A model generated the notes under the pieces. It was not told the DNA's origin and ran no database searches. It saw only the letters and a list, made by a program, of their open reading frames with translations. Shown here piece by piece: positions 1,494 through 20,531 of a stretch of DNA of 20,981 nt; the stretch's first letter is position 1, and each line of letters starts with the position of its first letter. Both the position numbers and the translations under genes were made by a program. Source of the DNA: a virus; IMG/VR virus record IMGVR_UViG_3300033145_000740, positions 1 through 20,981 of that record; one strand, 5' to 3'.

Positions 1494-1745
1494 TTGAAAT
1501 CACTCGAAAATATAGAGGTGCCCCGCCCGAAATGTGGGCACCCTCTTTTTATTTTTGACTACGGGGTACCGATCACAAAATTTCGTACCGAAACCCGAAA
1601 GTTCCCTCCCCCCACCTTAGGCCATCTCCTTAACCCCCTGTATTTACAGCAACTATTCCCGCAGTATGATAAAAAGCTTGACAAGAGATGTAGGAATGCT
1701 GTACATGTGATGTTCCATACATATAAATTAAGGATTTACCTATGA
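1494..1745 (+). CDS. Small protein of unknown function, first rightward gene
   Basis: 83 residues from a TTG at 1494; a GTG at 1518 is the other possible start. Neither has a clear ribosome site, and there is no in-frame ATG until near the C-terminus. The main support is the ATGA overlap with the next gene (1742-1745) and codon-like composition. The protein is basic and Pro-rich, with a lone CxH (PKCGHPLF) that recalls half of a zinc ribbon. The partner cysteines are missing, apart from one Cys and one His near the C-terminus. I do not recognise the family. It could be a decayed zinc-ribbon gene or a chance ORF. Confidence 0.4.
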   Translation: MKSLENIEVPRPKCGHPLFIFDYGVPITKFRTETRKFPPPTLGHLLNPLYLQQLFPQYDKKLDKRCRNAVHVMFHTYKLRIYL

Positions 1746-2434
1746 GACCCCCCCAACATCAAGTAATGCCAGGAACCTTCTTAGCCAGATTCGGTAATAT
1801 CACTACCCGCAGAGGTATGCTCGAAGAGGCGAAGCTATTCTCCTGGGACGTAGTACCTAAATGCCCACAGCCTCCACCCACTGACGATGAGGGTAATGTG
1901 CCCCCCGGCTTCCTTATCTGCCCGGCTATAGCATTATGTTCTTTCGATAAGTCCACACTCCAAAAGGAAGTCAAGTGTGGTGTCACTACCCAATACCTCC
2001 GAGGTACTGCCGAGATGATCTTCAACAACTTCGCCAACCTACTCTCCGAGGATGACTTCTATAGGGTAGGTATGCACCTGATGCCGTTGTACCGAATGTT
2101 AGTCAAGCTGAAGATACACGAACTCGGCGTACGGCGAGCAGTAACAACCTCGGATAGAGGGGTCACTAAGGCTAACCCTATATATAAGGAGATTAGGGAG
2201 ACCATTAAGTCGATAGAGAGTATGTGGTACAACCTACAGCTATCAGGGATTAACAAGCGTAAAGGCATAAAGAAACCGATACCCACTCCAGGTGATCTTG
2301 AAATGACTCCCGCACAAGACTTCTCTGAGCCTGGTTCTTACTACGAGGCAATGGCAGCTGGTGAATTGAAGACTGAGGACCAATTGAAGCAAGCACGGGA
2401 GAAAGGTAAGGATAAACTTAACCTTAGGAAATAG
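1742..2434 (+). CDS. Putative terminase small subunit, P27-like
   Basis: 230 residues; ATG overlaps the preceding stop, with AAGGA 7 bp upstream. Small terminases recognise viral DNA and load the large subunit for packaging. What I see is a helical middle part (about 85-130: MIFNNFANLLSEDDFYRVGM, MPLYRMLVKLKIHELG), then an NP (145-146) that opens a long helix IYKEIRETIKSIESMWYNLQLS, and a charged C-terminus. This order (helical pair, TKANP, helix ending in a short G/L-rich turn) is the usual plan of P27-family small terminases. The N-terminal 80 residues are Pro/Cys-containing and unfamiliar. The position three genes before the large terminase supports the call. Residue-level similarity is weak, so this is a moderate assignment. 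Confidence 0.5.
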   Translation: MRPPQHQVMPGTFLARFGNITTRRGMLEEAKLFSWDVVPKCPQPPPTDDEGNVPPGFLICPAIALCSFDKSTLQKEVKCGVTTQYLRGTAEMIFNNFANLLSEDDFYRVGMHLMPLYRMLVKLKIHELGVRRAVTTSDRGVTKANPIYKEIRETIKSIESMWYNLQLSGINKRKGIKKPIPTPGDLEMTPAQDFSEPGSYYEAMAAGELKTEDQLKQAREKGKDKLNLRK

Positions 2435-2443
2435 GGAGATACT

Positions 2444-3097
2444 GTGTACCGAATAGTATCATTTGGGACAGCCCATCCTCACCAATATAGAAAGGGGATA
2501 GCAGGGACGAAAAAGAAATGCCGAGCCCTCAGCCTGCCTTATCATATGGAATTGATAGATCCAACTCTTTTCCAATTCCGAGGATGGTATGGGGGAGTCT
2601 TGTACAAGCCAACCTTTATTAAGAAGATGTTGCATGGGTACGATCAGCCTATTGTTTATCTTGATGCCGATTGCGAAGTGGTAAGCGAGTTCACCTTGCC
2701 TGAGGGGGATTGGGACATAGGTATGTTGCCCCATCAGATATTGAGGAACAGAATACATTTCGATCCTTGGGTTTCTTCTTTATTGGCATTTAGACCAACA
2801 GATCGTGCAAAGCGCCTATTAGATATGTGGGAGCGTCTATGTCAATGGGGAGGCTTGAGAGAGTCAGATCACGAAAGACTTACATGGATACTTTCTATCA
2901 TGGAGGACGAAATAAGGATACAGAACCTGCTCCCCAATCTCCGAGAAAAGATTTACCTTGATCCGAGACACAGAAAAAGATGTAAGTACAGTTATGAGGA
3001 AATCCCAAAGGAGTTAGACAATTGGAATCCCCCTAAGAAGGAACTGCCAGAAGATAAACGTCAAGAGATTATGGAGCGTGTAAGAGGTGTGTTATGA
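2444..3097 (+). CDS. GT-A fold glycosyltransferase, phage-encoded
   Basis: 217 residues from a GTG at 2444, with GGGAGAT just upstream. The key signature is PIVYLDADCEVV, with D74-A75-D76 as the DxD motif that binds the metal and nucleotide sugar in GT-A transferases. Before it lies a helix with KPTFIKKML, typical of the stretch preceding DxD. After it come FDPWVSSLLAFRPTDRAKRLLDMWERLC (the region that reads as nSGv..f..t..a..ll..W in nucleotide-diphospho-sugar transferases) and a SDHERL box (141-146), the sD...L motif. There is no signal peptide or membrane segment, so it should act in the cytoplasm. It sits inside the packaging module, overlapping the next gene by ATGA, so it would be made late with the virion proteins. 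The acceptor is unknown. Ser/Thr-rich tails on virion proteins, DNA bases or cell-wall sugars are options; the tails are the most visible candidate in this window. Confidence 0.75.
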   Translation: MYRIVSFGTAHPHQYRKGIAGTKKKCRALSLPYHMELIDPTLFQFRGWYGGVLYKPTFIKKMLHGYDQPIVYLDADCEVVSEFTLPEGDWDIGMLPHQILRNRIHFDPWVSSLLAFRPTDRAKRLLDMWERLCQWGGLRESDHERLTWILSIMEDEIRIQNLLPNLREKIYLDPRHRKRCKYSYEEIPKELDNWNPPKKELPEDKRQEIMERVRGVL

Positions 3098-3528
3098 GAA
3101 ACAGACCCCTTGATTTAGGGAAAATGGTACGAACTATCGAAATGGATGATTCTGTTCTGGAGTTCTTAACTGTCCCGACTACTCGAAATGCTTTGGAATT
3201 TAGCATTGATCGTTTTAAAGAGATGGTCAAGAAACAACGGAAAAAGCTTTCGTTGAAGTATCACCCAGATATAGGAGGGAATCCTGAGCGAATGAAAGAG
3301 ATTAATGGTGCTTGCGACCTGCTGTTGAAGCTTCAGCTCCCCTCTCCATCAAGACGAAGTCCACCCCCGAGACCTCCTTGGGGCGAGGGTATTCCTAAAC
3401 CTCCTGCTGGGACTTGGCGTTTTTCGTCACCAAGACGAAGTCCACCCCCGAGACCTCCTTGGGGCGCTGGGACTTGTCATTTTTCATTTACTTTTATGAC
3501 ACATACCACCACTGAGAGCACCAACTAA
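3094..3528 (+). CDS. J-domain (DnaJ-like) protein with Pro/Arg-rich repeat tail
   Basis: 144 residues; ATGA overlap with the glycosyltransferase gene and AGAGGTG upstream. Residues 34-80 form a short J domain: helix with FKEMVKKQRKKLSLKY, the invariant HPD (57-59), then GGNPERMKEINGACDLL. J domains stimulate Hsp70 ATPases, so the protein may recruit host DnaK to virion assembly or to terminase. The J domain is preceded by about 30 residues and followed by a tail in which SPRRSPPPRPPWG occurs twice (about 86-97 and 112-124). That tail is encoded by two identical 36-bp DNA repeats (described separately). The final residues (MTHTTTESTN) are Thr-rich. The C-terminal part looks inserted rather than conserved. 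The gene overlaps the large terminase start by TAATG. Confidence 0.7.
   Translation: MRNRPLDLGKMVRTIEMDDSVLEFLTVPTTRNALEFSIDRFKEMVKKQRKKLSLKYHPDIGGNPERMKEINGACDLLLKLQLPSPSRRSPPPRPPWGEGIPKPPAGTWRFSSPRRSPPPRPPWGAGTCHFSFTFMTHTTTESTN
3350..3475 (+). repeat. Two 36-bp hairpin-forming direct repeats inside the J-domain gene
   Basis: Positions 3350-3385 and 3431-3466 are identical over 36 bp, with an 81-bp period (27 codons, frame kept). In each copy AAGTCC (3357-3362; 3438-3443) can pair with a later GGACTT (3410-3415; 3470-3475). In the second copy CCCC (3445-3449) can also pair with GGGG (3461-3464). The GC-rich inverted structure, unlike the surrounding sequence, resembles a REP/BIME or other small mobile hairpin that has inserted in frame and duplicated. 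Confidence 0.75.
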
Positions 3529-5459
3529 TGGTTAAACTGAAACTAAGAGAAGGAGTTATACTCGTAGGGGCTCCCGAACCAGAAGAGGAATTTAAACCAC
3601 AGTCCGAAGCCGAGGAGGAACTACTTGAATTTGACAACACAGGATATAGAGCGGGTGGAGAAGGAATGGCGAGATGGGTTGAGGACAAAGTTTACGTCCC
3701 AATTTATCCTGAGGGGGAAGACATTGCGACTTGGACAGCCATCAAACACCTTCCTGACACACCAAACCCCCAAACTGGGAAAAGTTACAAGACGATGTGG
3801 GAAGAGCAAAAGAAAATCCTCAACGTAGCCTTAAAAATGAATATGGGCAGATTCCTTCACAGACAGATTGTGTTATGCTGGATGCGAGGTGAAGGAAAGT
3901 CTCTATTAGCCTGCTTGATTCAATTGTGGAAGTTTTTCAATTGGCCCAGACAGCAGATCATGTTAGGTGCTAACTCCAAGGATCAAGTCAAGTTTGTTCA
4001 TTTTGATATTATGAGAGATATCATCCGCCACAGTCCCCAGTTGTTCGAGTATGTAGGTGGTGAGAGGAACATACTCGAAAAGGAGATTAGGATCAAAGAT
4101 ACCAAAAACAGAATACAATCCTTACTCCGATCGATTAGTTCATTCTCGGGCATTGTCTCTAATATTACAGGATACACCTTTTCAGAAATCTTCGATATGA
4201 AGAACCCCAAATTTTATACCCAGCTGCATGGGTCTATTCGTAACATACCCAACGCTATTGGTGTGATCGACAGCACAGTATCCGATAAGCTCCACGTTTT
4301 ATATAGATTGTATGACAACTTTATGCAGAAGAAAACAAGTCTCCTTCACTTCTCATATAGGAGTTCCAAGAATTCTGATCCAGATGACTTTTGGAATCCT
4401 AACATGGATAAAGCCCAGCTGAATGACTATGAGGTCAACTTTCCCTTTGGAGAGTATGAGAGGTACTTTCAGAATTTGTGGAGTGCTGGTGCGAAGCAAG
4501 TCTTTACCGATGAGATGGTGGAGGAGACAGGATTTATTGGAATCGATGGAGAGAGGTTGAATTCCGAAAAGGTGAGATCGGAGCTTGAACGAAAGAACCA
4601 CATGATGGAAGTTATCGATGACGTTGCCGCAAAGGGATTTGGTGATGGAGTCGAGGAGACACAACTGAAGATCGAACAAATATACCACAGGTTAGAACCA
4701 GTAGATAGTATTTACACATTGAAGGATAGATATAATGCCCCGCAGATGGCGACCATAGATGATCTCACAAAGTTGGGAGATTTGTTCGATACAGATTGGT
4801 CAATATTAGCTGGGACTGACTTTGGTGATCCATATGCTACCAGATCAATCGCACGGACCATGTTGTTTATAATCGCTAAAGGTTTACCAGGTTCACGGTC
4901 TAATCCACATCTTGCAATACTCGCAGAAGCCTCGCCCAAATATATCCACTTTGTTTTACATGTAATGAACGTCCTTGACCACAGTCTTGATTCTGTTAAG
5001 GATGTGGTCGATGAGGCTCACCAAGAATTTATGGGAGTAGATACATTTTGTAGTGAGAGATTTGGTGCATGGGACGCAGGCAAGTGGTGTGAAGAAAGAG
5101 ATATTGCTTTTGAGCCCATCTTTCCAACGTATGATCGCCAGAAGGAAGGATTCAAAGAGATATTGATTACGGTTCGAGAAGGTCGTTTTAAATGCCCCAT
5201 CCTTGCCGTCTCCGGCAGCAAGAAGAAGGACATCCTTAGAGAAGAAATGCCTGTGTTTAACCATGATGCAGAGAAGAAGTGGTTTGGTAGTCCTGAGAAA
5301 GGTCAAAAGTTTGGAGTACAGGATGATGCTATGTTCGCCGCCGCCTGGTGTATCTATGGTGGACGTAATTTAGGCATTGATGACTTCAGGATTAGACACA
5401 GGCAAATCAGCTTTGGTGAATTTAGTGCCAACAAAGCCTTAACAGGCTCCTACGCTTAA
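3528..5459 (+). CDS. terL: Terminase large subunit (packaging ATPase-nuclease)
   Basis: 643 residues; TAATG overlap with the J-domain gene, weak ribosome site, so probably coupled. Powers DNA translocation into the prohead and cuts the concatemer. The ATPase half carries a Walker A of the terminase type (MRGEGKS, R120-S125). A Walker B-like stretch at about 215-224 (GYTFSEIFDM, with E220 the likely catalytic carboxylate) departs from the usual hhhhDE. VIDST (247-250) fits the coupling motif. The RNase H-fold nuclease half shows D431 in GTDFGDP, E510 in CSERFG and D599/D600 in QDDAMFAAAW, the three metal-binding acids. An acidic N-terminal extension of about 60 residues precedes the core. Full length with no disruptions. 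The packaging type (cos or headful) cannot be read from this alone. Confidence 0.93.
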   Translation: MVKLKLREGVILVGAPEPEEEFKPQSEAEEELLEFDNTGYRAGGEGMARWVEDKVYVPIYPEGEDIATWTAIKHLPDTPNPQTGKSYKTMWEEQKKILNVALKMNMGRFLHRQIVLCWMRGEGKSLLACLIQLWKFFNWPRQQIMLGANSKDQVKFVHFDIMRDIIRHSPQLFEYVGGERNILEKEIRIKDTKNRIQSLLRSISSFSGIVSNITGYTFSEIFDMKNPKFYTQLHGSIRNIPNAIGVIDSTVSDKLHVLYRLYDNFMQKKTSLLHFSYRSSKNSDPDDFWNPNMDKAQLNDYEVNFPFGEYERYFQNLWSAGAKQVFTDEMVEETGFIGIDGERLNSEKVRSELERKNHMMEVIDDVAAKGFGDGVEETQLKIEQIYHRLEPVDSIYTLKDRYNAPQMATIDDLTKLGDLFDTDWSILAGTDFGDPYATRSIARTMLFIIAKGLPGSRSNPHLAILAEASPKYIHFVLHVMNVLDHSLDSVKDVVDEAHQEFMGVDTFCSERFGAWDAGKWCEERDIAFEPIFPTYDRQKEGFKEILITVREGRFKCPILAVSGSKKKDILREEMPVFNHDAEKKWFGSPEKGQKFGVQDDAMFAAAWCIYGGRNLGIDDFRIRHRQISFGEFSANKALTGSYA

Positions 5460-5557: not shown

Positions 5558-7228
5558 ATGAAAGATGACCTAAATATCGAACAATTCATACAAGATATGC
5601 CAGATGGGGTACTCCAAAGATTGCAATTTTCAGTGCCTTGGCAGTATGATGAAACAGATAGAGGTTACAAAGATTCTGACGGTTTTCCTTTATCAACTCT
5701 CGGCGATAAAGATGATCCTAATATTACCAGAGAAATACTCCAAGAGCAGTGTTGGTTAAAATACCAGCGTAATCCATATGTTAATACAGCTATACGTGGG
5801 ACGATGGGGAGACTCACTGGTTGGGGTTATGAGACCACTTCGGAAAATGAGCAGATTCAAGAAATCATCGAAGACACGGAGCTTGACCATAGAAACAGAC
5901 TGTACGATTTGATGCCTAAGTATGTGGGCCGATCACACGTTGAGGGTGAGCTTCATGTATCTCTGACTGTCCACGCTCCACCCGAAGTATTTGTCGAAGT
6001 AGATTTTGTTGATCCGTCAACGATAGTTGACTCTGGAGGGGATGGTAGTGGTATTATCTTTCATCCTCGAAAGACAATCATGCCCCTCTTTTATAATATC
6101 AAGCCCCAGACAGTATGGCCTGGAGATCAGTTTCAGGAACAGGTTCCAAGCATCTACATTGCCAGATACCCTGAACTTATTGCAGTGGCAAAGCAACATA
6201 TTTCCAAAGGATACAACCGAAGTCTTCAACAGAATTCCAGAAGTAGGAAAAAAGCTTTTCGTCCTTTTAAAGGATACAATAGATTCATAGTTAGCTGGAA
6301 TCGGGGATTAGTGACGAAAAGGGCAATTTCATACCTAAGAACCACGTTAGAGTGGTTAAATCACTATGAGAACCTTAAAAAGTACGAAATTGACCATAAA
6401 AAGTCATCTGGAGCTTATTTGTGGGTATTTAAGATAGAAGATGCACGTTCCTATAAGATTTGGTTGTCATTAAGTGATGAGGAGAAGCGTAAAACAGGCA
6501 TTATGCAGAAAAAAACTCCTGGTGGATCGCTCGTTTTGCCCCCAGGAATGTCGGTTACCTGTGAAAATCCACAACTTGCTTCTATAACTGATCAAGATTC
6601 AGATATTAAGGAAATGGTAACAAGTGGGCTGAATGAGCCCGCGGATGTTACCACAGGGAGTGCCAAAGGCACACATGCTTCGATTAAGGCTTCACGAGGC
6701 CCAATGAGTGATAGAACATCTGATGAAATAGCTTGGTTTGATAGATGGGCAAAATATGACTTTTGGAGCGCCATATTGTTTTTTCATACTGTACTTGGTA
6801 ACTTGCCTAAACGAATTCCTGTCCAGGAGGCTGTGAGTTTTACTGTTACGGAGAAAAGAATTAAAAATGAAGTGTCGGGGCTTATGGAAACCAAGTATGA
6901 ACATGTCCCTGTCTTTAAAGATAAATTGAAAAGGCCCGAGCAGTTGATTGATATTTCTTACCCTGCTTCTGAAATAACTGATTACGCGGCGAGGTCAAAA
7001 GGATTGCTTGGTGTCAAGCATGGTTCGGTATCTGAGACTCTTGGTATATCTAAAAAGACCATTGCTGGGAGGATAGGAGTTGAATCTTATGGAAGAGAAA
7101 GACTCCGAAAAGCAACGGAAGATAAAAAGTACCCCGCCACTCTTGCCACGGTCGATGCGGAATCGGTTCAAGAGAAGGCAGAGGGAGAACCTTCCAAGAC
7201 AAAGAGCAAAGCGCAGGAGGACAAATAA
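5558..7228 (+). CDS. Portal protein
   Basis: 556 residues from ATG 5558, preceded by AGGAAGAGG. Portal proteins form the dodecameric ring at one capsid vertex through which DNA enters and the neck attaches. The call rests on position directly after the large terminase, on size, and on portal-like stretches: a helical N-terminal region with RNPYVNTAIRGTMGRLTGWGYET, a beta-rich wing with a PSTIVD loop, and the segment GSLVLPPGMSVTCENPQLASITDQDSDIKEMVTSGLNEP (about 325-365), which matches the usual stretch before the portal stem helix. The last 80 residues contain a short helix-turn-helix-like segment (SVSETLGISKKTIAGRI) and a charged tail. No membrane segment. The stop overlaps the next start (TAATG). 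Confidence 0.8.
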   Translation: MKDDLNIEQFIQDMPDGVLQRLQFSVPWQYDETDRGYKDSDGFPLSTLGDKDDPNITREILQEQCWLKYQRNPYVNTAIRGTMGRLTGWGYETTSENEQIQEIIEDTELDHRNRLYDLMPKYVGRSHVEGELHVSLTVHAPPEVFVEVDFVDPSTIVDSGGDGSGIIFHPRKTIMPLFYNIKPQTVWPGDQFQEQVPSIYIARYPELIAVAKQHISKGYNRSLQQNSRSRKKAFRPFKGYNRFIVSWNRGLVTKRAISYLRTTLEWLNHYENLKKYEIDHKKSSGAYLWVFKIEDARSYKIWLSLSDEEKRKTGIMQKKTPGGSLVLPPGMSVTCENPQLASITDQDSDIKEMVTSGLNEPADVTTGSAKGTHASIKASRGPMSDRTSDEIAWFDRWAKYDFWSAILFFHTVLGNLPKRIPVQEAVSFTVTEKRIKNEVSGLMETKYEHVPVFKDKLKRPEQLIDISYPASEITDYAARSKGLLGVKHGSVSETLGISKKTIAGRIGVESYGRERLRKATEDKKYPATLATVDAESVQEKAEGEPSKTKSKAQEDK

Positions 7229-7533: not shown

Positions 7534-8487
7534 ATGACTACTCTTAAGGATGCCCCAGAATTAAGAACAACGGATGCCACTGTTACATTGATTAAAGCGG
7601 AGACAGACAAGATTGATGGAGCTGCGATAGATGGTCTTTTAGGCGTTGAGGGTTCATTAGGTTTTAAAGTCCATGAAATTGAAATACATTTCCATAATCG
7701 GGATTTTTGGCTTGGTGAGCATGAGTCAAGAAGTTTGGAGGACAGTTGTGGCCAAATTGACACTATGGCTCCTTTTCAAACGGATGCTGGGAATGGAACA
7801 GTTGATGACTATACTCCAGGATGGGGAGCGGCTTTGTGTGTTGTAGGAAGGGATGATCTTCCGATAACCTCAGATGGAGTTATGTATGGGGCGCATAAAA
7901 TAGTTGTGGTTGATGTAGAATCCACAGCGGATCTCAAACTACATAAAGTGCAGGTTGTATATGGAAGAGGAACTTTTGCAGAGGCCTTAGCGGATCAGCA
8001 ATATTCGGATGTTCCCCCTTTTATTCCATTAAGAGGGGCAGCATTTTCGGTGGTAGAATTTAGAATTCCTTCCAAATTGTGTGGGGCAGATAAAGTTTGG
8101 GTCAGGCATTGGGTTGATGGAATAAATACTGGGACTATGGATTTCTTTATTGGTATCTATGAACATCCACAGTTTGCTACAGCTATTCCAACGACCACAA
8201 CGACCACAACGACCACAACGACCACAACGAGTTCGACCACAAGTTCAACCAGTTCGACTGCTTCGACTACATCAAGTACGAGTTCAACCAGTTCGACAGC
8301 TTCAACCACAAGTTCAACCAGCTCGACAGCTTCAACCACAAGTTCAACCAGCTCGACTGCTTCAACCACAAGTTCAACCAGTTCGACTGCTTCAACCACA
8401 AGTTCAACCAGTTCGACTGCTTCGACTACATCAAGTACGAGTTCAACGGCATCAACAACCAGTACGACAACAACAGGACCACCATAA
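7534..8487 (+). CDS. Head-fibre-like virion protein with 98-residue Thr/Ser tail
   Basis: 317 residues; GGAGAGGG lies 9 bp upstream of ATG 7534. Residues 1-219 look folded: a short helical start, then beta-rich sequence (EIEIHFHNRDFWLGE, HKIVVVDVE, LHKVQVVYGRG, AAFSVVEFRIP, KVWVRHWVDGINTGTMDFFIGIYEH). They match nothing I can name. From residue 220 the chain is only Thr, Ser and Ala up to a GPP end: thirteen Thr, then repeats of the ten-residue unit SSTSSTASTT. The order folded domain then long extended tail, in the head cluster, suits a surface appendage or receptor-interacting fibre of the capsid, but this is inference. The tail is the longest of the five in the window. Next gene starts 17 bp downstream. 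Confidence 0.7.
   Translation: MTTLKDAPELRTTDATVTLIKAETDKIDGAAIDGLLGVEGSLGFKVHEIEIHFHNRDFWLGEHESRSLEDSCGQIDTMAPFQTDAGNGTVDDYTPGWGAALCVVGRDDLPITSDGVMYGAHKIVVVDVESTADLKLHKVQVVYGRGTFAEALADQQYSDVPPFIPLRGAAFSVVEFRIPSKLCGADKVWVRHWVDGINTGTMDFFIGIYEHPQFATAIPTTTTTTTTTTTTTSSTTSSTSSTASTTSSTSSTSSTASTTSSTSSTASTTSSTSSTASTTSSTSSTASTTSSTSSTASTTSSTSSTASTTSTTTTGPP
8191..8484 (+). repeat. Thr/Ser tail DNA with 30-bp minisatellite
   Basis: 294 bp coding for 98 residues. The first part is tandem 9-mers of ACGACCACA type (poly-Thr). Then 30-bp units (SSTSSTASTT) run back to back at 8281, 8311, 8341, 8371 and 8401, with a diverged unit at 8431 and a related one at 8242-8271. Neighbouring units differ by one or a few mostly silent bases. 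All lengths are multiples of three. Such tandem units are prone to expansion and contraction by slippage. Confidence 0.9.
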
Positions 8488-8503: not shown

Positions 8504-9697
8504 ATGCCTGAGAAGCACAAATTACCGAAGGGAGCGTTAAGATTAGTAGCAGAAGACTGTCATGCCCACATTGAGATGGCAGAGGTGGATGGAGAGAAAA
8601 TCCCTAAACTCAAAATGACTGTTTATAGTGGTAAACCTATTAACAGACATTGGTACTGGGGGAAGTTGGCGATTGATTTAGAAGGCATCAAGTTTGACAG
8701 GAGCAAATACCCTGTACTTGAAGGTCATTGTACAACCCAAAAAATTGCTTTTTCCCGCAAACCTCTAATAAATGGGGGGGTGGTTTTAGATCCTGGTACT
8801 ACGGTGTTTGTGAGTACTAAAGCCAGTGAGGAGTTTCAGAAGCTTGCTCAGGAGGGTTTTCCCTATCAGGCAAGTATTTATGCTATCCCCTCAGTGGTTG
8901 AGCGTGTGGAACCGGATGCCACAGTGGAGGTTAATGGATATAAATTGAAAGGACCCGCGGTAGTTTGGCGTGAGTGTCTTTATCAAGAAGCATCTATTTG
9001 TGTTTTTGGTTGGGACAAAAAGACGGAAGCCGCTGTCTTCTCCAAAGAGGAGGTAGAGCTTAATATGCAGTACATTGATAATAAAGGAGGTGATGCAGGC
9101 GAAAATGAGCAATCCAAACCTAAACTTAAACTTAGAGGCAATGAAGGAGGTGAAACAACCATGCCAAAGACTTTAGCAGAATTACAGGAAAAGTATCCCG
9201 ATTTGACCAAGCAGTTGTCAGATGGGGTTACGGCAGACCTGCAGACTACTTTTGACAAGGAGAAAACGGCTATGCAGGCCCAGATCACCCAACTCTCTAC
9301 GGAGAGGGATGATCAGGAGGCCAGAGTACTTTCCCTTGAAAAGAAGGATACGCTTCGTTCCGAAAAGGAGCTTACCCTGACCGCTGATCGAGTCTGGAAC
9401 GAGAAACTCGCCGCCAGCAACGTGGCTGAGCACCTGTTCGATAAGGTTAAAAAGCACGTTGTTCACGTCAAGTTTGTGAAAGATGGCGTTCTCGACCACA
9501 CCAAGTTTGGCGAGGCAATCGATGCTGAAATCACTGACTGGGAAAGTCGGGGAGCAACGTCCACCGTTCTCGGTGCCGGGTTCAGCAAGCCCACTCGGGA
9601 CGATGAGTTTAATAAGGCCTCCGTCCAGGAAAAAGCGGACGATGACATGGCCGACGAACTCCTGCAATTTGCGGGACAGGAACAAAAAACTGCATAA
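8504..9697 (+). CDS. Prohead protease-scaffold fusion
   Basis: 397 residues from ATG 8504, with GAGGAC 4 bp upstream. The N-terminal domain (1-185) reads as a phage maturation serine protease. YPVLEGHCTTQKIAFS carries the likely catalytic His75 and FPYQASIYAIPSVVERV the likely nucleophile Ser124, followed by EASICVFGWDKKTEAAVFS, the usual end of the core. Residues 220-397 are a scaffold: a helix-rich segment with coiled-coil character (LTKQLSDGVTADL ... AQITQLSTERDDQEARVLSLEKKD) and a polar tail. This is the Mu I/Z and lambda C/Nu3 plan, in which the protease is made both alone-fused and as separate scaffold from an internal start (see nested gene). It acts inside the prohead, cleaving scaffold and then itself. 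I did not identify the third catalytic residue with confidence. Confidence 0.72.
   Translation: MPEKHKLPKGALRLVAEDCHAHIEMAEVDGEKIPKLKMTVYSGKPINRHWYWGKLAIDLEGIKFDRSKYPVLEGHCTTQKIAFSRKPLINGGVVLDPGTTVFVSTKASEEFQKLAQEGFPYQASIYAIPSVVERVEPDATVEVNGYKLKGPAVVWRECLYQEASICVFGWDKKTEAAVFSKEEVELNMQYIDNKGGDAGENEQSKPKLKLRGNEGGETTMPKTLAELQEKYPDLTKQLSDGVTADLQTTFDKEKTAMQAQITQLSTERDDQEARVLSLEKKDTLRSEKELTLTADRVWNEKLAASNVAEHLFDKVKKHVVHVKFVKDGVLDHTKFGEAIDAEITDWESRGATSTVLGAGFSKPTRDDEFNKASVQEKADDDMADELLQFAGQEQKTA
9161..9697 (+). CDS. Nested in-frame scaffolding protein start
   Basis: An in-frame ATG at 9161 (Met220 of the protease-scaffold) is preceded at 7 bp by AAGGAGGTGA (9144-9153), a full match to the 16S anti-Shine-Dalgarno, the best possible signal in the middle of an ORF. 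It would give a 178-residue coiled-coil scaffold protein lacking the protease. Scaffold is needed in far larger amounts than protease, which explains an internal start stronger than that of the outer gene. The same strategy is known for lambda C/Nu3 and Mu I/Z. Confidence 0.78.
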   Translation: MPKTLAELQEKYPDLTKQLSDGVTADLQTTFDKEKTAMQAQITQLSTERDDQEARVLSLEKKDTLRSEKELTLTADRVWNEKLAASNVAEHLFDKVKKHVVHVKFVKDGVLDHTKFGEAIDAEITDWESRGATSTVLGAGFSKPTRDDEFNKASVQEKADDDMADELLQFAGQEQKTA

Positions 9698-9713
9698 AGG
9701 AGGTGAATAGTCC

Positions 9714-10418
9714 ATGCAAACATTACAACGTGGAGGGGACATTCCCCATATAATTGGGAGTGTCCAAAAAGATTACAAGCGGTTGTACTTCTCCGATCCC
9801 ACCGCCGCATTAAAAGTGCCCATTACTTTACAAGCTGGCTATGGCATCCTTGAGCAGGGCACAGCACTTTCCAAGAACATCTCGGCTGGTACTGCTGGGG
9901 GTAAGGATAAGCTGCTTCCTTACAATCCCACGATCTTTGATGGGACGGAGAACAGCCCAGGCAGGGCCTATCTTGTGGGTGGTGGTACTAATGCCACTTA
10001 TACTGTCCATGTGACTATTGATGATAGTTACAAATTCAATGTGGGGGATGATATTTTCATCAATGATAATACCACTGCCGCAGAGAATCTGGGAGCGATC
10101 ACAGGGATTGATAGGACAACCTATGCCAACTTTGCTGTTATCACGTTTACTACGGTGATCGGTGGTACGACTTTCACCCTGGCACGATTTGCTTATGTGG
10201 CTGTCGAAGCCGGCGCCGCCAATAACTACGCGGATTGTGTAGGTATCCTTGAGAAGACGGTCCAGACCGGCGTCGGTGAAAATGCTAAGGGTGCCGTTGC
10301 GACAATAATTCTCGGCAATTGTGTGCTGTACGAAGGTCTTTTAACCAATTTCGATGCTGCCGCAAAAGCCGATCTTTCAACTGCCACGTCTTTTGGGCAG
10401 TTCGTATATATTCGATAG
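9714..10418 (+). CDS. Capsid decoration protein, gpD-like, with inserted beta domain
   Basis: 234 residues with a strong AAAGGAGGTGA ribosome site before ATG 9714. Decoration proteins cap capsid trimers after expansion. The outer parts fit the lambda gpD / HK97-like decoration plan: KVPITLQAGYGILEQGTALSKN near residues 34-55 and, at the end, VGILEKTVQTGVGENAKGAVATIILGNCVLYEGLL (about 176-210). Between them lies an additional domain of about 80 residues (roughly 85-165) with VHVTIDDSYKFNVGDDIFINDNTTAAENLGAITGID. It makes the protein twice the length of gpD and resembles the insert in the major capsid protein. There is no Thr/Ser tail on this protein, unlike its neighbours. Confidence 0.65.
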   Translation: MQTLQRGGDIPHIIGSVQKDYKRLYFSDPTAALKVPITLQAGYGILEQGTALSKNISAGTAGGKDKLLPYNPTIFDGTENSPGRAYLVGGGTNATYTVHVTIDDSYKFNVGDDIFINDNTTAAENLGAITGIDRTTYANFAVITFTTVIGGTTFTLARFAYVAVEAGAANNYADCVGILEKTVQTGVGENAKGAVATIILGNCVLYEGLLTNFDAAAKADLSTATSFGQFVYIR

Positions 10419-10436
10419 AAGGGAGGTGAAACTGAT

Positions 10437-11765
10437 ATGCCAAGAGGATCAAGCGATATACCCGAATTAAGATTAGAAGTTCTTCAGAAGTTTGTAACCA
10501 GATTCACGGCACCACCGAATCTGATTCTGATGAACTTGTTTCCCTCCACTACTTCTCCATCAAGTACAGTTCGATGGGAAAGTCAGCGTGGTGGCAGAGG
10601 GCTCACACCCTTTGTCCCGCCCGGAGCACCTGCGCATGTGACGGCACCCCACGGGGTTGCCCAGCACCTTGCGGAAGCTGCTTACTGGAAGGAAAAAATG
10701 CCGTTCGATGAGGAATTCCTTAATAACCTTAGGAAAGAGGGCACGGTGGCCCAGTATATGTCGGCAAAGCAACGCCTGGCAAGAGAACTGAGTTATTTGA
10801 GGAATCGTTCAAATCGTCGGATCGAATGGATGTTCACCAAGATGTTGTTTACCGGCTCCTTTGACTATAAGGTTAAAGGTGGTTATATGGCAACGGTTGA
10901 TTATAGCATCCCTACAGATCACAATGTAACCTTGGGTTCTGCTTATAACTGGTACGATGGAGCAAGCAGGAATATTATCCAAGATATCCGGGACGGCAAA
11001 CGAAAGATCAAAGAGAACTGTGGTGGTACAGTCAACATGGCCATCTGCAACTCGAAGGTCTTGACTTATCTGGCCGATGACACCACGATCCGCCAACTCT
11101 TGCAAAAGAACATGTTTGGCAAGGGTGATTTATTCAGTGGTTCCAAAGACAAGCTGGCTATGATCAACCCGAAAGTGGTTGCTGGTATTTTGGACATTGA
11201 TAATCTTATCGTTTATGATGAGATGTACGAAGTCAAGGCCTGGTTGACAGCGGCAGTTACAGGTGCTTCCAGTACCTGGATCTCGGTAGACGATGCAAGC
11301 GATTTTGAAGCCAAAGGCATGCTCCGCTTCTGGGATCAAAGTGCCGGCACCTACGAGGATCGGCAGATTCTTTCCGTTGATCACTTTGGTGGCCGTGTTC
11401 AAGTCCATACCCCACCCGCCGCCTCGTATAAGGCCGCAGAGGACTACGTCACTATGGCGAAGTACTTTGTACCGGATGATAAGTTTGTCATGCTTGCCAC
11501 TACGGTGGAGGGACAAGCGATTGCCGAGTACAAACAGGCACCTTTCGGTTTAGGTCGCCATTTTGGGCAATACACTGACAAGCACGATGACTGGGACCCG
11601 GAAGTAACGTGGATTCGTGTACAGGATAAGGGCTTGCCTATTCTGTATCAAAGGGATGCTCTTTACATCCTTGACGTGAGGATTACCCCAGGTGATGTGT
11701 TAACCACGACCACATCGACCACAACGACCACATCGAGCACAACAACAACCACAACTACTGCGTAA
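10437..11765 (+). CDS. Major capsid protein, lambda gpE-like, with Thr-rich tail
   Basis: 442 residues; GGGAGGTGAA lies just upstream of ATG 10437. The call rests on its position after protease, scaffold and decoration genes and on gpE-like features: an N-terminal arm ending in ESQRGGRGLTPFVPPGAPAH, a helical spine with AEAAYWKEKMPFDEEFL and AKQRLARELSYLRNRSNRRIEWMFTKMLFTG, and a C-terminal region with WDPEVTWIRVQDKGLPILYQRDALYILDV. Residues about 268-340 look like an inserted small beta domain (WISVDDASDFEAKGMLRFWDQ ... RQILSVDHFGGRVQVHTPP). The last 20 residues are Thr/Ser ending in Ala. Being present in hundreds of copies, this tail would dominate the virion surface if exposed. Confidence 0.78.
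   Translation: MPRGSSDIPELRLEVLQKFVTRFTAPPNLILMNLFPSTTSPSSTVRWESQRGGRGLTPFVPPGAPAHVTAPHGVAQHLAEAAYWKEKMPFDEEFLNNLRKEGTVAQYMSAKQRLARELSYLRNRSNRRIEWMFTKMLFTGSFDYKVKGGYMATVDYSIPTDHNVTLGSAYNWYDGASRNIIQDIRDGKRKIKENCGGTVNMAICNSKVLTYLADDTTIRQLLQKNMFGKGDLFSGSKDKLAMINPKVVAGILDIDNLIVYDEMYEVKAWLTAAVTGASSTWISVDDASDFEAKGMLRFWDQSAGTYEDRQILSVDHFGGRVQVHTPPAASYKAAEDYVTMAKYFVPDDKFVMLATTVEGQAIAEYKQAPFGLGRHFGQYTDKHDDWDPEVTWIRVQDKGLPILYQRDALYILDVRITPGDVLTTTTSTTTTTSSTTTTTTTA
11703..11762 (+). repeat. Thr/Ser tail of the major capsid protein
   Basis: 60 bp coding for 20 residues, TTTTSTTTTTSSTTTTTTTA. Built from ACC, ACA and ACG codons with TCG/AGC for Ser, like the other tails. Directly follows the predicted last strand of the capsid fold. 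Confidence 0.9.
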
Positions 11766-11788
11766 AAGCAGGGGAGTGTACAGCCATT

Positions 11789-12139
11789 ATGGAAACGATA
11801 ACTAAAGTACAATTGCATGCCACTTTAAAATGCGGTGGCAAAGTCTGGGAGGCGGGTGTATATAATGCACCCGTTCCCCCAGACCTAATAGCCGAGGCCC
11901 GAGCCAAAAACCGAGCGAGATCGGGTGTTATAATGGTAGAAATTCTTGAAACTAAAGTCTCAAAGGTAGTTCCTATCCGCTCACCGGAAGCTTCCACATC
12001 AGTATCAAGTGTGACAACTTCTAATTTGAGAGAAGGTCCTATGTATGCGGCTGAAAAAAAAGTGGAGGTCCCCCCTTCTACGAAGTTGAGAAAGAAGAGG
12101 GCTCCAAAACAAAAACTTAAATTAGTATTAAGGGGATAG
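11789..12139 (+). CDS. Small head-region protein of unknown function
   Basis: 116 residues; GGGGAG about 14 bp upstream of ATG 11789. Residues 1-50 (VQLHATLKCGGKVWEAGVYNAPVPPDLIAEARAKN) resemble the short beta/helix module K-V-x-G-x-x-Y-x-x-G-x-x-x-x-x-P-x-x-[LI]-x-x-x-x found in small phage proteins encoded between capsid and head-tail connector. After residue 60 the chain is Ser/Thr-containing, then very basic (KLRKKRAPKQKLKLVLRG). The basic end might touch DNA at the neck; this is a guess. Coupled within 1 bp to the next gene. Confidence 0.5.
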   Translation: METITKVQLHATLKCGGKVWEAGVYNAPVPPDLIAEARAKNRARSGVIMVEILETKVSKVVPIRSPEASTSVSSVTTSNLREGPMYAAEKKVEVPPSTKLRKKRAPKQKLKLVLRG

Positions 12140-12142
12140 TTG

Positions 12143-12601
12143 GTGACTACTCAAGCTGAAATGATTGTTTTAATGAAGGCTGAGGTAAAGGGATTGACCT
12201 CTTACCTTGACGATGTTGATTACACCAATGCAACGAATGACGCCGCTGGGGAAACGGGGTGGGCATTCCCTGTAACTGATAACTTCAAAATCTACTGGAT
12301 GAAGCAGAGGTCGAAAAGACACCTTTACGAATATCTCCTAACTGAAAGTGCCCATAAGTTTAAGTATGAACAAATCAACTTACAACACCGCTTTGAGCAT
12401 TACAGTAAGCTGATTAAGCGTATGGATGAGGACTTCGTAAACATCCAGGAAGCAAGACCTGATCAATTTGCTGATGTTGCTGCTTCCAGATTATTCGGTA
12501 CTAAGGTTGATGCAGGCTTTGCTTATGTGCCACAAACTGGACAGGACATCACTTACGTTGATGACCAACTGGTAGAATTTGGGCCCAAGGAATCCGAGTA
12601 G
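12143..12601 (+). CDS. Putative head-tail connector protein
   Basis: 152 residues. I prefer the GTG at 12143 over the TTG at 12140, because AGGGGAT (12131-12137) then sits at a better distance. Mostly helical, with a Trp/Tyr-rich middle (DNFKIYWMKQRSKRHLYEYLLTESAHKFKYEQINLQHRFEHYSKLIKRMDEDF). Position after the capsid gene and size suit an adaptor of the gp6/gpW type that docks on the portal, but I see no diagnostic motif. It lacks a Thr/Ser tail. Confidence 0.5.
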   Translation: MTTQAEMIVLMKAEVKGLTSYLDDVDYTNATNDAAGETGWAFPVTDNFKIYWMKQRSKRHLYEYLLTESAHKFKYEQINLQHRFEHYSKLIKRMDEDFVNIQEARPDQFADVAASRLFGTKVDAGFAYVPQTGQDITYVDDQLVEFGPKESE

Positions 12602-12656
12602 GGCGATAGTTTGAGAGAACCCAACATGAGAGAGCCTAAGAGGCTGAAAGAACAAA

Positions 12657-13379
12657 ATGACAATTGGCCCCGATATCCGAGAAGCAATTGTTGAGGTTGG
12701 TTCAGCGATAACGATATTGAGAGCCGCAGGAAACGTAACAGGGGAATATTTAAAATATAAATTAAATTCACAGGTAACAAAGCCTTTTATTCAAGAGTTC
12801 TTTCTTGAGGCTGATATTCCTTATGATACAGTCGTTGCGGTAGGCGATGTCGTACAGATTAATGTTACCACCATTAAGTATTTGGTAATGAATCTGTTGG
12901 CAGAGATGTTTGAGAACGAGGTTATTAAATATAATGCCGTTCTTTACAAGTGCAATGTTGTAGTAGACCTCAAAAGACCCTCCGAAGATGATTGGGATGA
13001 TTCCCAACTCTACCACCGTCAAACCTCTTGGACTACTTATGGTAGTGATGTTAATGCTCTCATCACCACCCCTCTCTATGGACACGACCTTGTAACCGAT
13101 GAAGAATTGGGCATGCTGGGTTTGGAAAGACATGAGATGTATGTTGCAACTGCGGAAGGTGTTGAGCAGTTGGATAGGGTTAGGGTTTCTGCACATGAGT
13201 ATTATCGTGTGGAGACCGTTAAGAAACGCCGATATTCTGCTGTAGACGTTTTGGAAATAGGGGAGGATACAAGAAGTGCGACCACTACCACGACAAGCAC
13301 GACCACGAGTTCGACAACGACAACTACGACAACCACGACAACATCATCGTCCACAACAACGACCACTACAACGCCGTAG
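12657..13379 (+). CDS. Neck protein with Thr/Ser tail
   Basis: 240 residues from ATG 12657; the ribosome site is weak (AAGAGG about 13 bp upstream). Residues 1-205 mix helix and strand (FIQEFFLEADIPYDTVVAVGDVVQINVTTIKYLVMNLLAEMFENEVIKYNAVLYKCNVVVDLKR). Position between connector and tail-completion genes suits a neck stopper or adaptor. The VGDVV then LYKCNVVVDLKR pattern recalls small beta-barrel neck proteins. Family not recognised. The chain ends in 32 Thr/Ser residues closing with Pro. The DNA coding that tail is also open in the +1 frame and leads into a zinc-ribbon ORF (see 13276). Confidence 0.55.
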   Translation: MTIGPDIREAIVEVGSAITILRAAGNVTGEYLKYKLNSQVTKPFIQEFFLEADIPYDTVVAVGDVVQINVTTIKYLVMNLLAEMFENEVIKYNAVLYKCNVVVDLKRPSEDDWDDSQLYHRQTSWTTYGSDVNALITTPLYGHDLVTDEELGMLGLERHEMYVATAEGVEQLDRVRVSAHEYYRVETVKKRRYSAVDVLEIGEDTRSATTTTTSTTTSSTTTTTTTTTTSSSTTTTTTTP

Positions 13380-13500
13380 GACGGTTCAGTTTAAATGTGG
13401 TTGCACGACTGAGTACCCGTGGGCATATAGAACCTGTCCCGTTCACCATAGAGACATTGTGACTCAATACAATCCCGTGGATTCGAGGCATTTGATATGA
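13276..13500 (+). CDS. Zinc-ribbon small protein overlapping the Thr tail in +1 frame
   Basis: 74 residues from a GTG at 13276, preceded 8 bp upstream by GGGGAGGA (13260-13267). The first 35 residues come from the same DNA as the Thr/Ser tail of the neck protein, read one base over, and are Arg/Gln/Pro-rich. The rest (FKCGCTTEYPWAYRTCPVHHRDIV) has a CxC-x(10)-CPVH pattern, typical of the small zinc ribbons found in phage operons. The stop overlaps the next start by ATGA. No ATG, GTG or TTG lies in frame between the tail and the first Cys, so the ribbon is reached only from this GTG, by a +1 shift from the neck gene, or by a rare start codon. The ribbon is likely real; the start is uncertain. 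Confidence 0.5.
   Translation: MRPLPRQARPRVRQRQLRQPRQHHRPQQRPLQRRRTVQFKCGCTTEYPWAYRTCPVHHRDIVTQYNPVDSRHLI
13281..13376 (+). repeat. Thr/Ser tail of the neck protein
   Basis: 96 bp coding for 32 residues: Thr runs of 5, 3, 10 and 7 separated by one to three Ser and closing with Pro. The +1 frame across it is open and used by the putative zinc-ribbon gene. Confidence 0.88.
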
Positions 13501-15003: not shown

Positions 15004-15687
15004 ATGTCAAGAACAGGACCTTTAACTAAGGATACTACCACAGTAGCATTGGGACTTGCCCAGATCAGAATCGGACTTGCTTCAACGTACATCGGACAGA
15101 GAAGGCCCATCCTTACCGCTGCCAACTCGGTCGGTGCTCTGGCTGATACTAAGGTTGTTGGTAATGTTGATTTCTTCAAATTGGAATCAGGGTTCCCTTT
15201 ACAGGAAGATGCTATCTTCCCTTTGAGGGAGGCGATTGCTCTGGAGTTGTCTTTTAAAGAGATCACTCCAGCTAATGTGGCTTTGGCTCGGGGACTTAAT
15301 CCAGCGGATTATCCCAATGTCCATACAGGGGAAATCCCCTTAGGTACTATGGCCACTCCAACATTCCTGCGTTTGGAAGCGATTTACACATATCCTGATG
15401 GAGTTAATACGATGAAGATCGTCTTCCCCAGGATGCAGGTTGCAGCCAGTCTGGAAATGGATTTCCAAATGGAAGATGTTTTAGCTGTGCCCATTGTGTG
15501 TGAATCTAAAAGGGCGGACGGCGCTATCTCTGGTGGTCATGCTATCTGGAATGGTGCTCCGTTGGGTCTCATTCTTTGGGATGATGCCACACAGACCACC
15601 ACGACCACCACGACCACAACGACCACAACGACCACAACGACCACAACGAGTTCAACCACAAGCTCGACCACGACCACAGCGCCATAA
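15004..15687 (+). CDS. Major tail tube protein with Thr/Ser tail
   Basis: 227 residues; a strong GGGAGGTGAA site lies just before ATG 15004. Tube proteins stack as hexamers around the tape measure. Residues 1-195 show a beta-rich fold with the stretch VGNVDFFKLESGFPLQEDAIFPLREAIALELSFKEITPANVALARG, a pattern typical of tail tube proteins in which the beta hairpin loop is followed by a helix. TFLRLEAIYTYPDGVNTMKIVFPRMQVAASLEMDFQMEDVLAVPIVCES supplies the closing strands. Gene order (after terminator, before chaperone and tape measure) agrees. It ends in 30 residues of Thr/Ser closing with AP, which would project from each subunit along the tail if outward facing. Confidence 0.78.
   Translation: MSRTGPLTKDTTTVALGLAQIRIGLASTYIGQRRPILTAANSVGALADTKVVGNVDFFKLESGFPLQEDAIFPLREAIALELSFKEITPANVALARGLNPADYPNVHTGEIPLGTMATPTFLRLEAIYTYPDGVNTMKIVFPRMQVAASLEMDFQMEDVLAVPIVCESKRADGAISGGHAIWNGAPLGLILWDDATQTTTTTTTTTTTTTTTTTTSSTTSSTTTTAP
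15595..15684 (+). repeat. Thr/Ser tail of the tail tube protein
   Basis: 90 bp coding for 30 residues: 18 Thr, then SSTTSSTTTTAP. Positions 15638-15677 are identical over 40 bp to 20446-20485 in the gpM-like gene. Confidence 0.9.
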
Positions 15688-16458: not shown

Positions 16459-19400
16459 ATGTCACAACAAACACTTTCATTAGGTACTATATTTACAGGT
16501 CGTGTTGATGCCAAGTTTAGAGTGGCTGTCGCCAGTTTAGATAGGTCGTTAGTTGCTCTGAACACTTTGATGGGCAAGACGACCAAAGCCACAACGGCGG
16601 CGGCTGCGGCATCTACCCGAGTGGGAACAGCACAAACGAAAGCGGCTGCAGGAGCTAAGAAGCACACGAAAGCCTTGCACCCAATGAACAAACAGATTGC
16701 TAAAGTTCATGGGGCAATGGAACGCTTCAAAGCGGCTCTTAAAGTGACTGCCGCTTATGGTGCCGCTGCAACAGGAATCTTTTTGATTGTTGATGCACTT
16801 AAAGCTGGCACGATGGAGATAATCAACTTTGATCAAGCTCTCCGAAACCTTGAAGCCATCACAAGAGCCCTCCCAGAAGAAATAGTCATCATGTCTGATA
16901 GAATGATAGAAGTGGCTAAGACAACGAAGTTCTCCACTACGGAAATAGCGGAAGGGATGGTATTGTTAGGTCAGGCTGGTTTTAGTGCGGCTGAAGGCAT
17001 CAATGCCATACAAGCAGTTGCGGACCTTGCTTCTGGTACTCTGACTGATATGAAGTCCACTGCCGATCTTGTGACAAGTGCGCTCAGGGCATTTCAATTG
17101 GATTCTATTGAGGCGGGCAGAACGGCTGATGTCTTTGCAAATGCCATCAATAAATCCAAACTAACTATGGATAAAATTCGTACCTCTTTTAATTATATAG
17201 GTGCGGCGGCTTATCAGGTGGGACTATCGATTGAGGAAACTGCTGCTACCATGATGCTCCTTGCTAATAATGGTTTGCGAGCAAGTACAATAGGTACTGG
17301 TTTTAGGCAAGTGTTGTCTCGAATGATCGCTCCCAGCAGAAAATTGAAGGAGGCTTTTAAAGATTATGGTATAGAAATTGATTCGATTAATCCTAAGACT
17401 CAGGGTTATACAGTAGCTATGGAAAACTTATCTCAGGTAATTACAGAGGCAGATGGTATTACGGTTGACATGGCAAAGACTTTCAGTTTGTTTGGTCTGC
17501 GTGGTGCTCAGGCGGCGGCTGTAATAGCAGATGGGTTTTTAAGTAATAAATTCAAAGACGCTTTAAAGAAGGTCCACGAAGTGGGATCCGCAGAGAAAAT
17601 GGCTGCTATTCAAGCAAAGGGCTTGTGGTTTCAATTTAAGAATCTGGCAGATAGAGCAGGTGCTCTTGCCATAGCCCTTGGGGAGGCGGGAGTTAAAGGT
17701 ATATTACAAGCCTTAGTTATAACTTTAAGAACAACGGTTATACTTATAACCAAACTTGTGGAGGATCCTTTATCTCAGGTTATAATAAAGTTTGGTTTAT
17801 GGACTACTGCTACATTACTATTGGTCAAAGCTTTGAGTATTCTCACTGTAATCCTACCTGTGGTTTTAAAGTTTCTTGGGGGGATAGCTCTTTCTTTATA
17901 TGCAACTCCCTGGGCAGCTATTGCTATAGCTATTACTGGAGTTGTTATTGCTTATAAACATTTTGACCAGATACTGACTAAAAACGTTGAGAAACTCAAA
18001 CAACAAATTGCCGTAATGGATGGTAATATCCATTCTTTAAAAGCATATAAAGGAGCATTGCAATCTACCTTTGATGAAATGAAAGAGGGCGATGAACTTT
18101 CTGAAAAACACCTTTCTACTTTGGAGAGATTGAAGAAAGCACATCCAGAACTTGCTGAAATGATCGACAGTACGGTAAAATCGTATGAAGGGTACAATAA
18201 AATTTTGAAGGAGGTCAATAAACAGCAAGAGGTTCAGGAGAGGGCGCGAATACTGAAACTGTTGGAGTTATTGGCCCTTGAAGCAACGTGGATTGATCGT
18301 GCGGGGAAGAAAGTCGTTGCGGCAAGGAAGAGAGCCGTTGTGGCACAGGCCAAAGTGGAAGGAGGTGCTGTTGGCCAAGGTCCAGCAACCCAGGCAAAAA
18401 TGTTAGCAAGGATGGTGACCGATGCCGAGAAAATTTTAGCAGGAGCAGAAGAAGAACGAGCCAAATCTGTGGCAAAGCTTACTACTCTCCTTTATGCCAG
18501 GGCCCAAGCCCATGAAAATGTTGTGGAATCTGGTGAACGCTGGATTACAGTAATACAAAAAATAGGTAAATTTACTGATAAAGAAATAGCCACGATCCGA
18601 TCTGTATTAATACCAGAACTTGAAAGACTCGCCAAAGCCCGAGCTAAAGCCACAGGTAAAAGGGAAGTAAAAGAAAGTATGAAGGCACAGAAAGCAAGCC
18701 TTAAATTTCAACGGAGATATTTAGAAGCAATGGCGAGGATGGAGGGAGACCAGACTGGGAAATTATTGTTGGAACATAAGGCAAGGCTTTTAAGCCATGA
18801 ACAGTCTGCCAATGAACAGATTGAATTAGCAGGTAAGAATGAGGATAAATTAAATGAAATAAGAGCCAGAAAAAGAGAGTTGGATGATCAGAGTCTTAAA
18901 TTTTATAAGAAGAAATTGTTGGATAGGACATTTGATTTTGCCAAACAAGAAGCGGATTTAGAGAAAAAACAAACAATGCTCATTCTGGAGGAGAAAAAGC
19001 AAAGGGCTGTACTTGAAGGGCAAAGCACCAAAGAAATAGATAAACTAATCCGCCAAGAGAAGATAGCCTCATTGAGAGATGCTTTAGCACAGGAGAAGGA
19101 GTATTTTAAACTTGTAACTAAATTCTCTGATAAAAGAACCATAGAGGTAATAGATGCGGAGAAGAGGTTGACAGATGCACAAAGGGCTTTAAGTGTTGCT
19201 GTTACTGCGGATTTGGTGAGGGATGCTAAAGAAAGGGAGGATGAACAGGTTCGCAGTTTGAAGGCCCAACTCAAATTGGTTACTGAGTTTTCAGATGAGT
19301 GGTTGACTATTCAAGGGGAGCTGTATGATAAGGGTAAATTATCCGCTGTTGCCTACCATGAGGCAATCAACCAAAATATGATTAGGCAGATGTCTTGGTG

Positions 19401-20022: not shown

Positions 20023-20531
20023 TGGCTACTTTTCCATTAGTGAGTAATAATTCAAAAACATCTGATTGGGAGGTATTTAAAGAGGTCAGAGCAAAACCTC
20101 AGATCAGAACTCCCTTTGAGGGTGGTGCGGTTCAGTCAAGGGCAAGAGTAACCACTGCCCGTTGGAAGTTTCAAGTGGGTTTTATCAAAATGACTACTGC
20201 TAATTATAATACGTTGGTTGCTTTCTTTGATACTAATCAGGGAAGTACTTTTACATTTGTTCATCCTATTAAGGGAACTTCTCATACTGTTAGGTTCTCT
20301 GAAGATGAATTACCGGAAGCAGATCCTGTAGGTACGGGAGACGATGCTCGGTGGAACATTGAAGGCATCAATTTGGAGGAGACGGCAGGCTCGACTGTGA
20401 CAGTGGCGACTACTACAACCAGTACCACGACCACATCGACCACATCGACCACAACGAGTTCAACCACAAGCTCGACCACGACCACTACGACCACAACGAC
20501 CACAACAACAACCACAACAACGAGCCCATAA
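20022..20531 (+). CDS. Tail tip protein, gpM-like, with Thr/Ser tail
   Basis: 169 residues; AAAGGAGC upstream of ATG 20022. Follows the tape measure as gpM does in lambda. Residues 1-128 carry the expected pattern R..TPFEGG.VQSRARVTTARWKFQVGFIKMTTANYNTLVAFFDTNQGSTFTFVHP, in which a strand, then a short helix with L..FF, then G..F.f.hP matches minor tail proteins M and related tip hub proteins. The last 40 residues are Thr/Ser ending in SP, the second longest tail in the window. TAATG coupling to the following gene. Confidence 0.7.
   Translation: MATFPLVSNNSKTSDWEVFKEVRAKPQIRTPFEGGAVQSRARVTTARWKFQVGFIKMTTANYNTLVAFFDTNQGSTFTFVHPIKGTSHTVRFSEDELPEADPVGTGDDARWNIEGINLEETAGSTVTVATTTTSTTTTSTTSTTTSSTTSSTTTTTTTTTTTTTTTTSP
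20409..20528 (+). repeat. Thr/Ser tail of the gpM-like tip protein
   Basis: 120 bp coding for 40 residues (four Thr, Ser, four Thr, mixed STT blocks, then 16 Thr and SP). Shares a 40-bp identical block (20446-20485) with the tail tube gene tail. Confidence 0.9.

Follow-up and report, generated by a model that had tools for sequence, protein, structure and literature searches.

A glycosyltransferase gene of the packaging operon and a separate enzyme island as candidate partners in the glycosylation of Thr/Ser-tailed phage virions

The glycosylation of virions by phage enzymes is already known from a few mycobacteriophages, in which, according to the accounts given in PMC11256854 and PMC12619734 (citing Freeman et al. 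2023), phage enzymes glycosylate the C-termini of the capsid and tail-tube proteins. In the autonomous glycosylation of the chloroviruses and mimiviruses, a multi-enzyme viral gene set builds the glycan on the capsid protein, and the enzyme A64R is built from a GT-A domain and a methyltransferase domain (PMC4691112). The locus described here also combines a viral glycosyltransferase gene with possible acceptors, in the form of C-terminal tails rich in threonine and serine. Comparison with related phages points to a separate island of enzymes as the strongest candidate machinery for the addition of sugars to these tails, rather than the glycosyltransferase of the locus itself.

The stretch of DNA analysed, referred to here as the window, is an entire IMG/VR virus record, a linear fragment of 20,981 bases which contains a late operon, with a small-terminase-like gene, the glycosyltransferase (GT) gene, a J-domain-like protein, the large subunit of the terminase (terL), the portal, and the capsid and tail genes, all of those given below being on the plus strand. 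The small-terminase-like gene, us1 (1742-2434), is assigned a function by its position only, before terL in most of the relatives, and has no Pfam or PHROG match; it forms the upstream border of a slot, the interval between this gene and terL (1742-3528), in which the GT gene lies (2444-3097). The J-domain-like protein (3094-3528), which has homologues in loci L005, L027, and L028, matches PF00226 with an E value of 1.2e-4, below the cut-off, and its C-terminal half contains a duplicated SPRRSPPPRPPWG-type segment (3350-3470). This gene is followed by terL (3528-5459; phrog_9, 4.9e-15) and by the portal protein (5558-7228), recognized from a weak match to PF05136 and from its position after terL, which is conserved in the relatives. 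The 3' end of the record is occupied by a DUF2460-like distal tail protein, and the fibre genes, together with everything past them, fall outside the record.

The GT gene starts nine bases past the stop codon of its upstream neighbour, and its own stop codon overlaps the start codon of the next gene (TTATGAG at 3093-3099), which overlaps, in turn, the start of terL (TAATG). Given this spacing and the chain of overlaps as far as terL, the GT gene reads as a member of the packaging operon, as the preliminary description had proposed in stating that the enzyme is made with the packaging genes. Further upstream, palindrome-like repeats of the types TGAATGAGGTTCA and GAATGGCATTCA are found at 100-157, 625-656, 1075-1125, and 1261-1345, flanking an open reading frame on the minus strand (273-638), and it is possible that these motifs are the operator sites of a regulator. 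A search for the host recovered matches to the capsid protein in only two contigs of metagenome-assembled genomes, one in a Melioribacter bin, which is of the tailless type, and the other, of 5 kb, in a Bacteriovoracaceae bin.

The GT gene has a GTG start codon and encodes a protein of 217 residues which, used as a lone query, returned no match in Pfam, the PHROGs, the PDB sequences, or the phage records of GenBank. The features noted in the preliminary description are all present, however: the DxD of the GT-A enzymes (D74-A75-D76), the SDHERL box (at residue 141), and the character of a soluble protein, with no hydrophobic segment and a best mean hydropathy of 0.5 over 19 residues. Locus L027 contains a syntenic orthologue with 52% identity (88% in terL), and L002 a more distant homologue, which matches PF03407 (Nucleotid_trans) above the curated cut-off. 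Further scans produced a family of 15 phage members, in all of which T9, Y15, W48, D74, D76, W129, and L146 are invariant, and ten of which match PF03407, whereas the window GT and its L027 orthologue do not match it. Given that only its relatives score on this profile, the window GT would be expected to work like a Nucleotid_trans enzyme, and is not filed here as a member of the family.

An AlphaFold2 model of the protein (pLDDT 82.4, pTM 0.84) has a GT-A fold. The structural search returned 351 PDB chains with a Z score of at least 8, with GT-A enzymes in all of the top rows, led by A64R of PBCV-1 (2p72_B; Z 14.0, 3.0 Å over 165 residues) and followed at around 11 (best Z 11.3) by entries for GT6, glycogenin, and galactosyltransferase. 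The best match is, then, a capsid-glycan enzyme, and not a DNA-base or teichoic-acid transferase, the outcome that the preliminary description had set against its own proposal. A64R (PDB 2P6W/2P72/2P73), which is described as being involved in the glycosylation of the major capsid protein, is a viral protein like the window GT, which it resembles in a GT-A fold over residues 1-179, but the two share only 11-12% identity and A64R comes from a eukaryotic algal virus. It is also fused to a methyltransferase, whereas the window GT is a single-domain protein of 217 residues with no methyltransferase gene in the window; in L027, the partner is found, as in A64R, but as a separate gene beside the GT. 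The modelled fold, the invariant DxD, and the relatives that match PF03407 go well past anything expected by chance and bear out the original identification, and the protein is almost certainly a glycosyltransferase, although its likeness to A64R does not reveal the acceptor.

The preliminary description had counted five virion proteins with Thr/Ser-rich tails, and this count holds, with tails of 97, 16, 31, 28, and 42 residues, a total of 214, of which 197 are threonine or serine. The longest of these tails (8194-8484) belongs to a virion-operon protein (7534-8487) with tailed homologues in L004, L005, and L039, and the shortest (11715-11762) to the major capsid protein (10437-11765; phrog_29, 6e-44). 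The others are found in the virion-operon proteins T3 (12657-13379; 31 residues) and T4 (15004-15687; 28 residues), and in the DUF2460-like distal tail protein (20022-20531; 42 residues), which has weak matches to PF09343 and phrog_1302. The tails contain no charged residue, their Thr and Ser codons are mixed, and tandem repeats are present in the DNA that encodes them. A search of the open-licence literature for Thr-rich phage tails found no relevant publication.

Among the relatives recovered with the terL and capsid sequences, the capsid protein, T3, and T4 are either all tailed or all tailless. The tail of the capsid protein was recorded in 38 of the 61 relatives, and these 38 sequences make up one side of a single branch of the capsid tree (100/100), which means that the tail and the island described below may share one origin within this clade. 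The monophyly of the tailed phages was rejected for terL, on the tree of which the tail label needs five changes, two of them forced, compared with one on the capsid tree. This difference indicates an exchange of terL with respect to the capsid module, and recombination between the packaging and capsid genes would thus be implied by the sequences.

Most of the tailed relatives have an empty slot between us1 and terL, and other relatives present a varied cargo. In L027, a PF13578 methyltransferase gene lies directly before the GT, and other slots contain sulfotransferases (L029 and L032, the contigs of which end too early to show tails), NlpC/P60 (L030), DUF3326 (L039), or N6/N4 DNA methylases (L046 and the tailless L100). 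A slot sulfotransferase of L030 (878-1479) is split over two reading frames, and is possibly either a decayed copy or the product of a sequencing error. Within the window's phage group, the GT family is restricted to the window and L027, and it is absent from about 14 other tailed lineages in which the slot is visible, so the tails do not need this enzyme. Searches of the tailed relatives with PF03407 and profile A1 found neither beyond the window's own sub-lineage. The window GT is thus, very probably, an optional accessory gene of the slot.

The preliminary description had proposed to test whether phages with such tails carry this transferase more often than relatives without tails. Tails were scored as Thr/Ser tracts by a nine-codon pattern restricted to ACN and TCN codons, which undercounts tails with AGY serines (the tailed genome G006, for example, scored zero). 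These tracts were found in 2 of the 18 records with other members of the GT family, in comparison with 3 of 50 random IMG/VR phage contigs, and a comparison based on at least three tract hits gave P=0.17. The result was also negative inside the tailed clade, where 38 capsid proteins have tails and the window and L027 alone have the GT. Given these counts and the rarity of the gene in the clade, the window's enzyme does not go with the tails.

A different set of genes does go with the tails. The gene content was compared between 11 tailed and 8 tailless relatives, and one family, A, was found in each of the six near-complete tailed genomes but in none of the eight tailless relatives; a profile search for A confirmed both counts (6/6 tailed genomes and none of the tailless records). 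Families B, C, and D were each found in five of the six near-complete tailed genomes and in no tailless relative (0/8), and families E and F in four of the six each. These genes form an island located after the tail-fibre genes, that is, beyond what the 21-kb record of the window covers. D is a GT2 enzyme (PF00535), B a GT4 (PF00534), and F a methyltransferase; C has GT4-like C-terminal motifs and weak matches to solved GT4 enzymes, and A is, by its fold, a GT-A enzyme (best Z 15.2, with many GT2-type enzymes close behind). The order B-C-F-A-D is largely conserved across the genomes that bear the island (G001, G003, G006, G014, G019, and G023, at loci L122-L151, and also G069, G074, G092, G103, and G105), and the islands also include radical-SAM/SPASM, PIG-L deacetylase, and sulfotransferase genes.

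The GT cluster of the tailless relatives is a different one, located in the virion operon directly after the T3 homologue, and consists of a GT4 of 690 residues, often with a GT2 of approximately 250 residues (G016, 11377-13449; G022, 54204-56291; G035, 23389-25449; G017, 9230-11329). GT clusters alone do not therefore mark the tails, and the presence of a match, whether to PF00535 or to PF00534, was rejected as a tail marker. A tblastn search of 50,697 phage records with the GT, A, B, and C recovered a single record, the uncultured phage LR756508, for A, and A, B, and C have no close match in any cultured phage among these records, a result with which a distant homology to the mycobacteriophage transferases is compatible. 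Searches of the open-licence literature found no publication on the system of island and tails.

Given that the tail has only one origin in the window's clade, the search was widened beyond it. A scan of IMG/VR with A recovered 78 loci; a near-copy and three records belonging to the capsid clade of the window were then left out. Thr/Ser tracts (at least three hits) were found in 22 of 46 A-carriers and in 1 of 50 random contigs (P=6e-8, a value that ignores the kinship among the carriers), and in 17 of 35 against 0 of 23 when both sets were limited to 20-100 kb (P=2.4e-5, with kinship again ignored). The genes B, C, and D lie near A far more often in the tract-positive records, B, for example, in 19 of 25 against 6 of 25 (P=5e-4). 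In a scan with C, which has contigs in common with that of A, and in which some short contigs could be fragments of clade members, tailed open reading frames were located within 10 kb in 13 of 19 loci outside the known members of the clade, in comparison with none of 61 random loci. In G069 and G103, the capsid protein belongs to phrog_1328, and not to phrog_29, and the tails are found at the end of an Ig-like major tail protein, while the tailed proteins at other loci include head decoration, adaptor, and minor tail proteins. The island and the tails thus co-occur across capsid lineages. The proposal that these virions are glycosylated is partly supported by the statistical association of the tails with glycosyltransferases, but the families that are linked to them are A, B, C, and D of the island, outside the window, and not the enzyme first singled out. 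The roles in immune masking or the binding of mucus suggested in the preliminary description would be speculative for a phage from the environment.

The slot and the island are connected by their cargo. The islands of G001, G081, G086, and G088 contain sulfotransferases homologous to those that L029 and L032 have in the slot, and the slot methyltransferase of L027 is homologous to genes located in or beside islands, such as that at 18468-18998 of G092, between A and D. The window's GT family was never found inside the B-C-F-A-D islands examined. The homology between the slot and the island genes is the main support for the participation of the GT in the island pathway, and the absence of its family from the islands is the main gap.

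In the reading favoured here, the enzymes of the island would act in the cytosol late in infection and O-glycosylate the Thr/Ser tails. The window GT, which is cytosolic and bears a DxD, would add an optional, strain-variable sugar to the glycan made by the island. The probability assigned to this complete chain is about 0.45. Its parts differ in strength, given that the tails are probably glycosylated by island-type enzymes and, if they are, the GT would be likely to act on the same glycan. This implies that the tails would carry sugar, and that the window phage's own genome would include an island, with the window GT acting presumably on the glycan that this island makes. The strongest rival, although an unlikely one, is that the GT modifies a glycan of the host surface, in superinfection exclusion or the masking of receptors, with no relation to the tails. 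The GT family is found in clusters of glycosyltransferase, methyltransferase, and sulfotransferase genes in phages that have no Thr/Ser tails, its carriers are not enriched for tails, and its patchy presence fits a cargo gene of host adaptation. The Gtr enzymes of serotype conversion span the membrane several times, however, whereas the GT has no hydrophobic segment; it is also embedded in the packaging operon, and the genes that occupy its slot in the relatives are homologous to those of the island. The preliminary description had proposed that the GT may decorate the tails, and a reading in which it alone initiates their glycosylation is consistent with the operon it shares with the tailed proteins and with a capsid-glycan enzyme as its best fold match, but the tails persist throughout the clade without the GT, only 2 of 18 carriers have tracts, and the enzymes linked to the tails belong to other families, which makes this role improbable.

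It is also rather unlikely that the tails are unglycosylated, as flexible spacers or low-complexity expansions, with the island building some other glycan in these phages. The tandem repeats in the DNA of the tails and their single origin within the window's clade are compatible with this alternative. The mixture of synonymous codons, the all-or-none presence over several virion proteins, the restriction to Thr and Ser with no charge, and the recurrence of the tails with the island in phages with another capsid family all argue against it. Some phage glycosyltransferases modify DNA bases, according to the account of Pyle et al. (2024) in PMC12619734, and the window GT could, in principle, glycosylate modified bases in the phage's own DNA. 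This appears highly improbable, given that its GT-A fold is nearest to that of protein and oligosaccharide enzymes, that no base-modification gene was recognized among the scanned proteins of the 21-kb fragment, and that the gene has a late operon position.

The tail glycosylation proposed here may extend well beyond this clade, and the chances are about even that mucin-like virion glycosylation is widespread in uncultured tailed phages. In such a system, poly-Thr/Ser C-terminal tails would be borne by capsid, connector, tail-tube, and fibre proteins, the island would be shared across unrelated capsid lineages, and exchangeable genes for sulfotransferases, methyltransferases, and extra glycosyltransferases, including the window GT before terL, would diversify the glycan. 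If the tails are the acceptors, they would represent a modular, shared glycoprotein system of phages with a recognizable sequence signature (poly-Thr/Ser tails and the B-C-F-A-D island), which would predict which phages bear sugar-coated particles. The system would also be a source of cytosolic enzymes of Ser/Thr O-glycosylation with built-in acceptor peptides.

To our knowledge, no Thr/Ser tails are known in the chloroviruses or mimiviruses. These viruses have a multi-enzyme set in common with the phages that bear the island, but they infect eukaryotes. As in the mycobacteriophage system, in the accounts of it cited above, the glycosyltransferases are encoded by the phage, both the window GT and the islands of the near-complete relatives. 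The system proposed here differs from those accounts in the poly-Thr/Ser tails found on several virion proteins, and in the B-C-F-A-D island and its sulfotransferases. Relative to the virion glycosylation known from these phages, the new elements would be the dedicated tails of poly-Thr/Ser, their all-or-none pattern of occurrence, and an island of several enzymes that is conserved.
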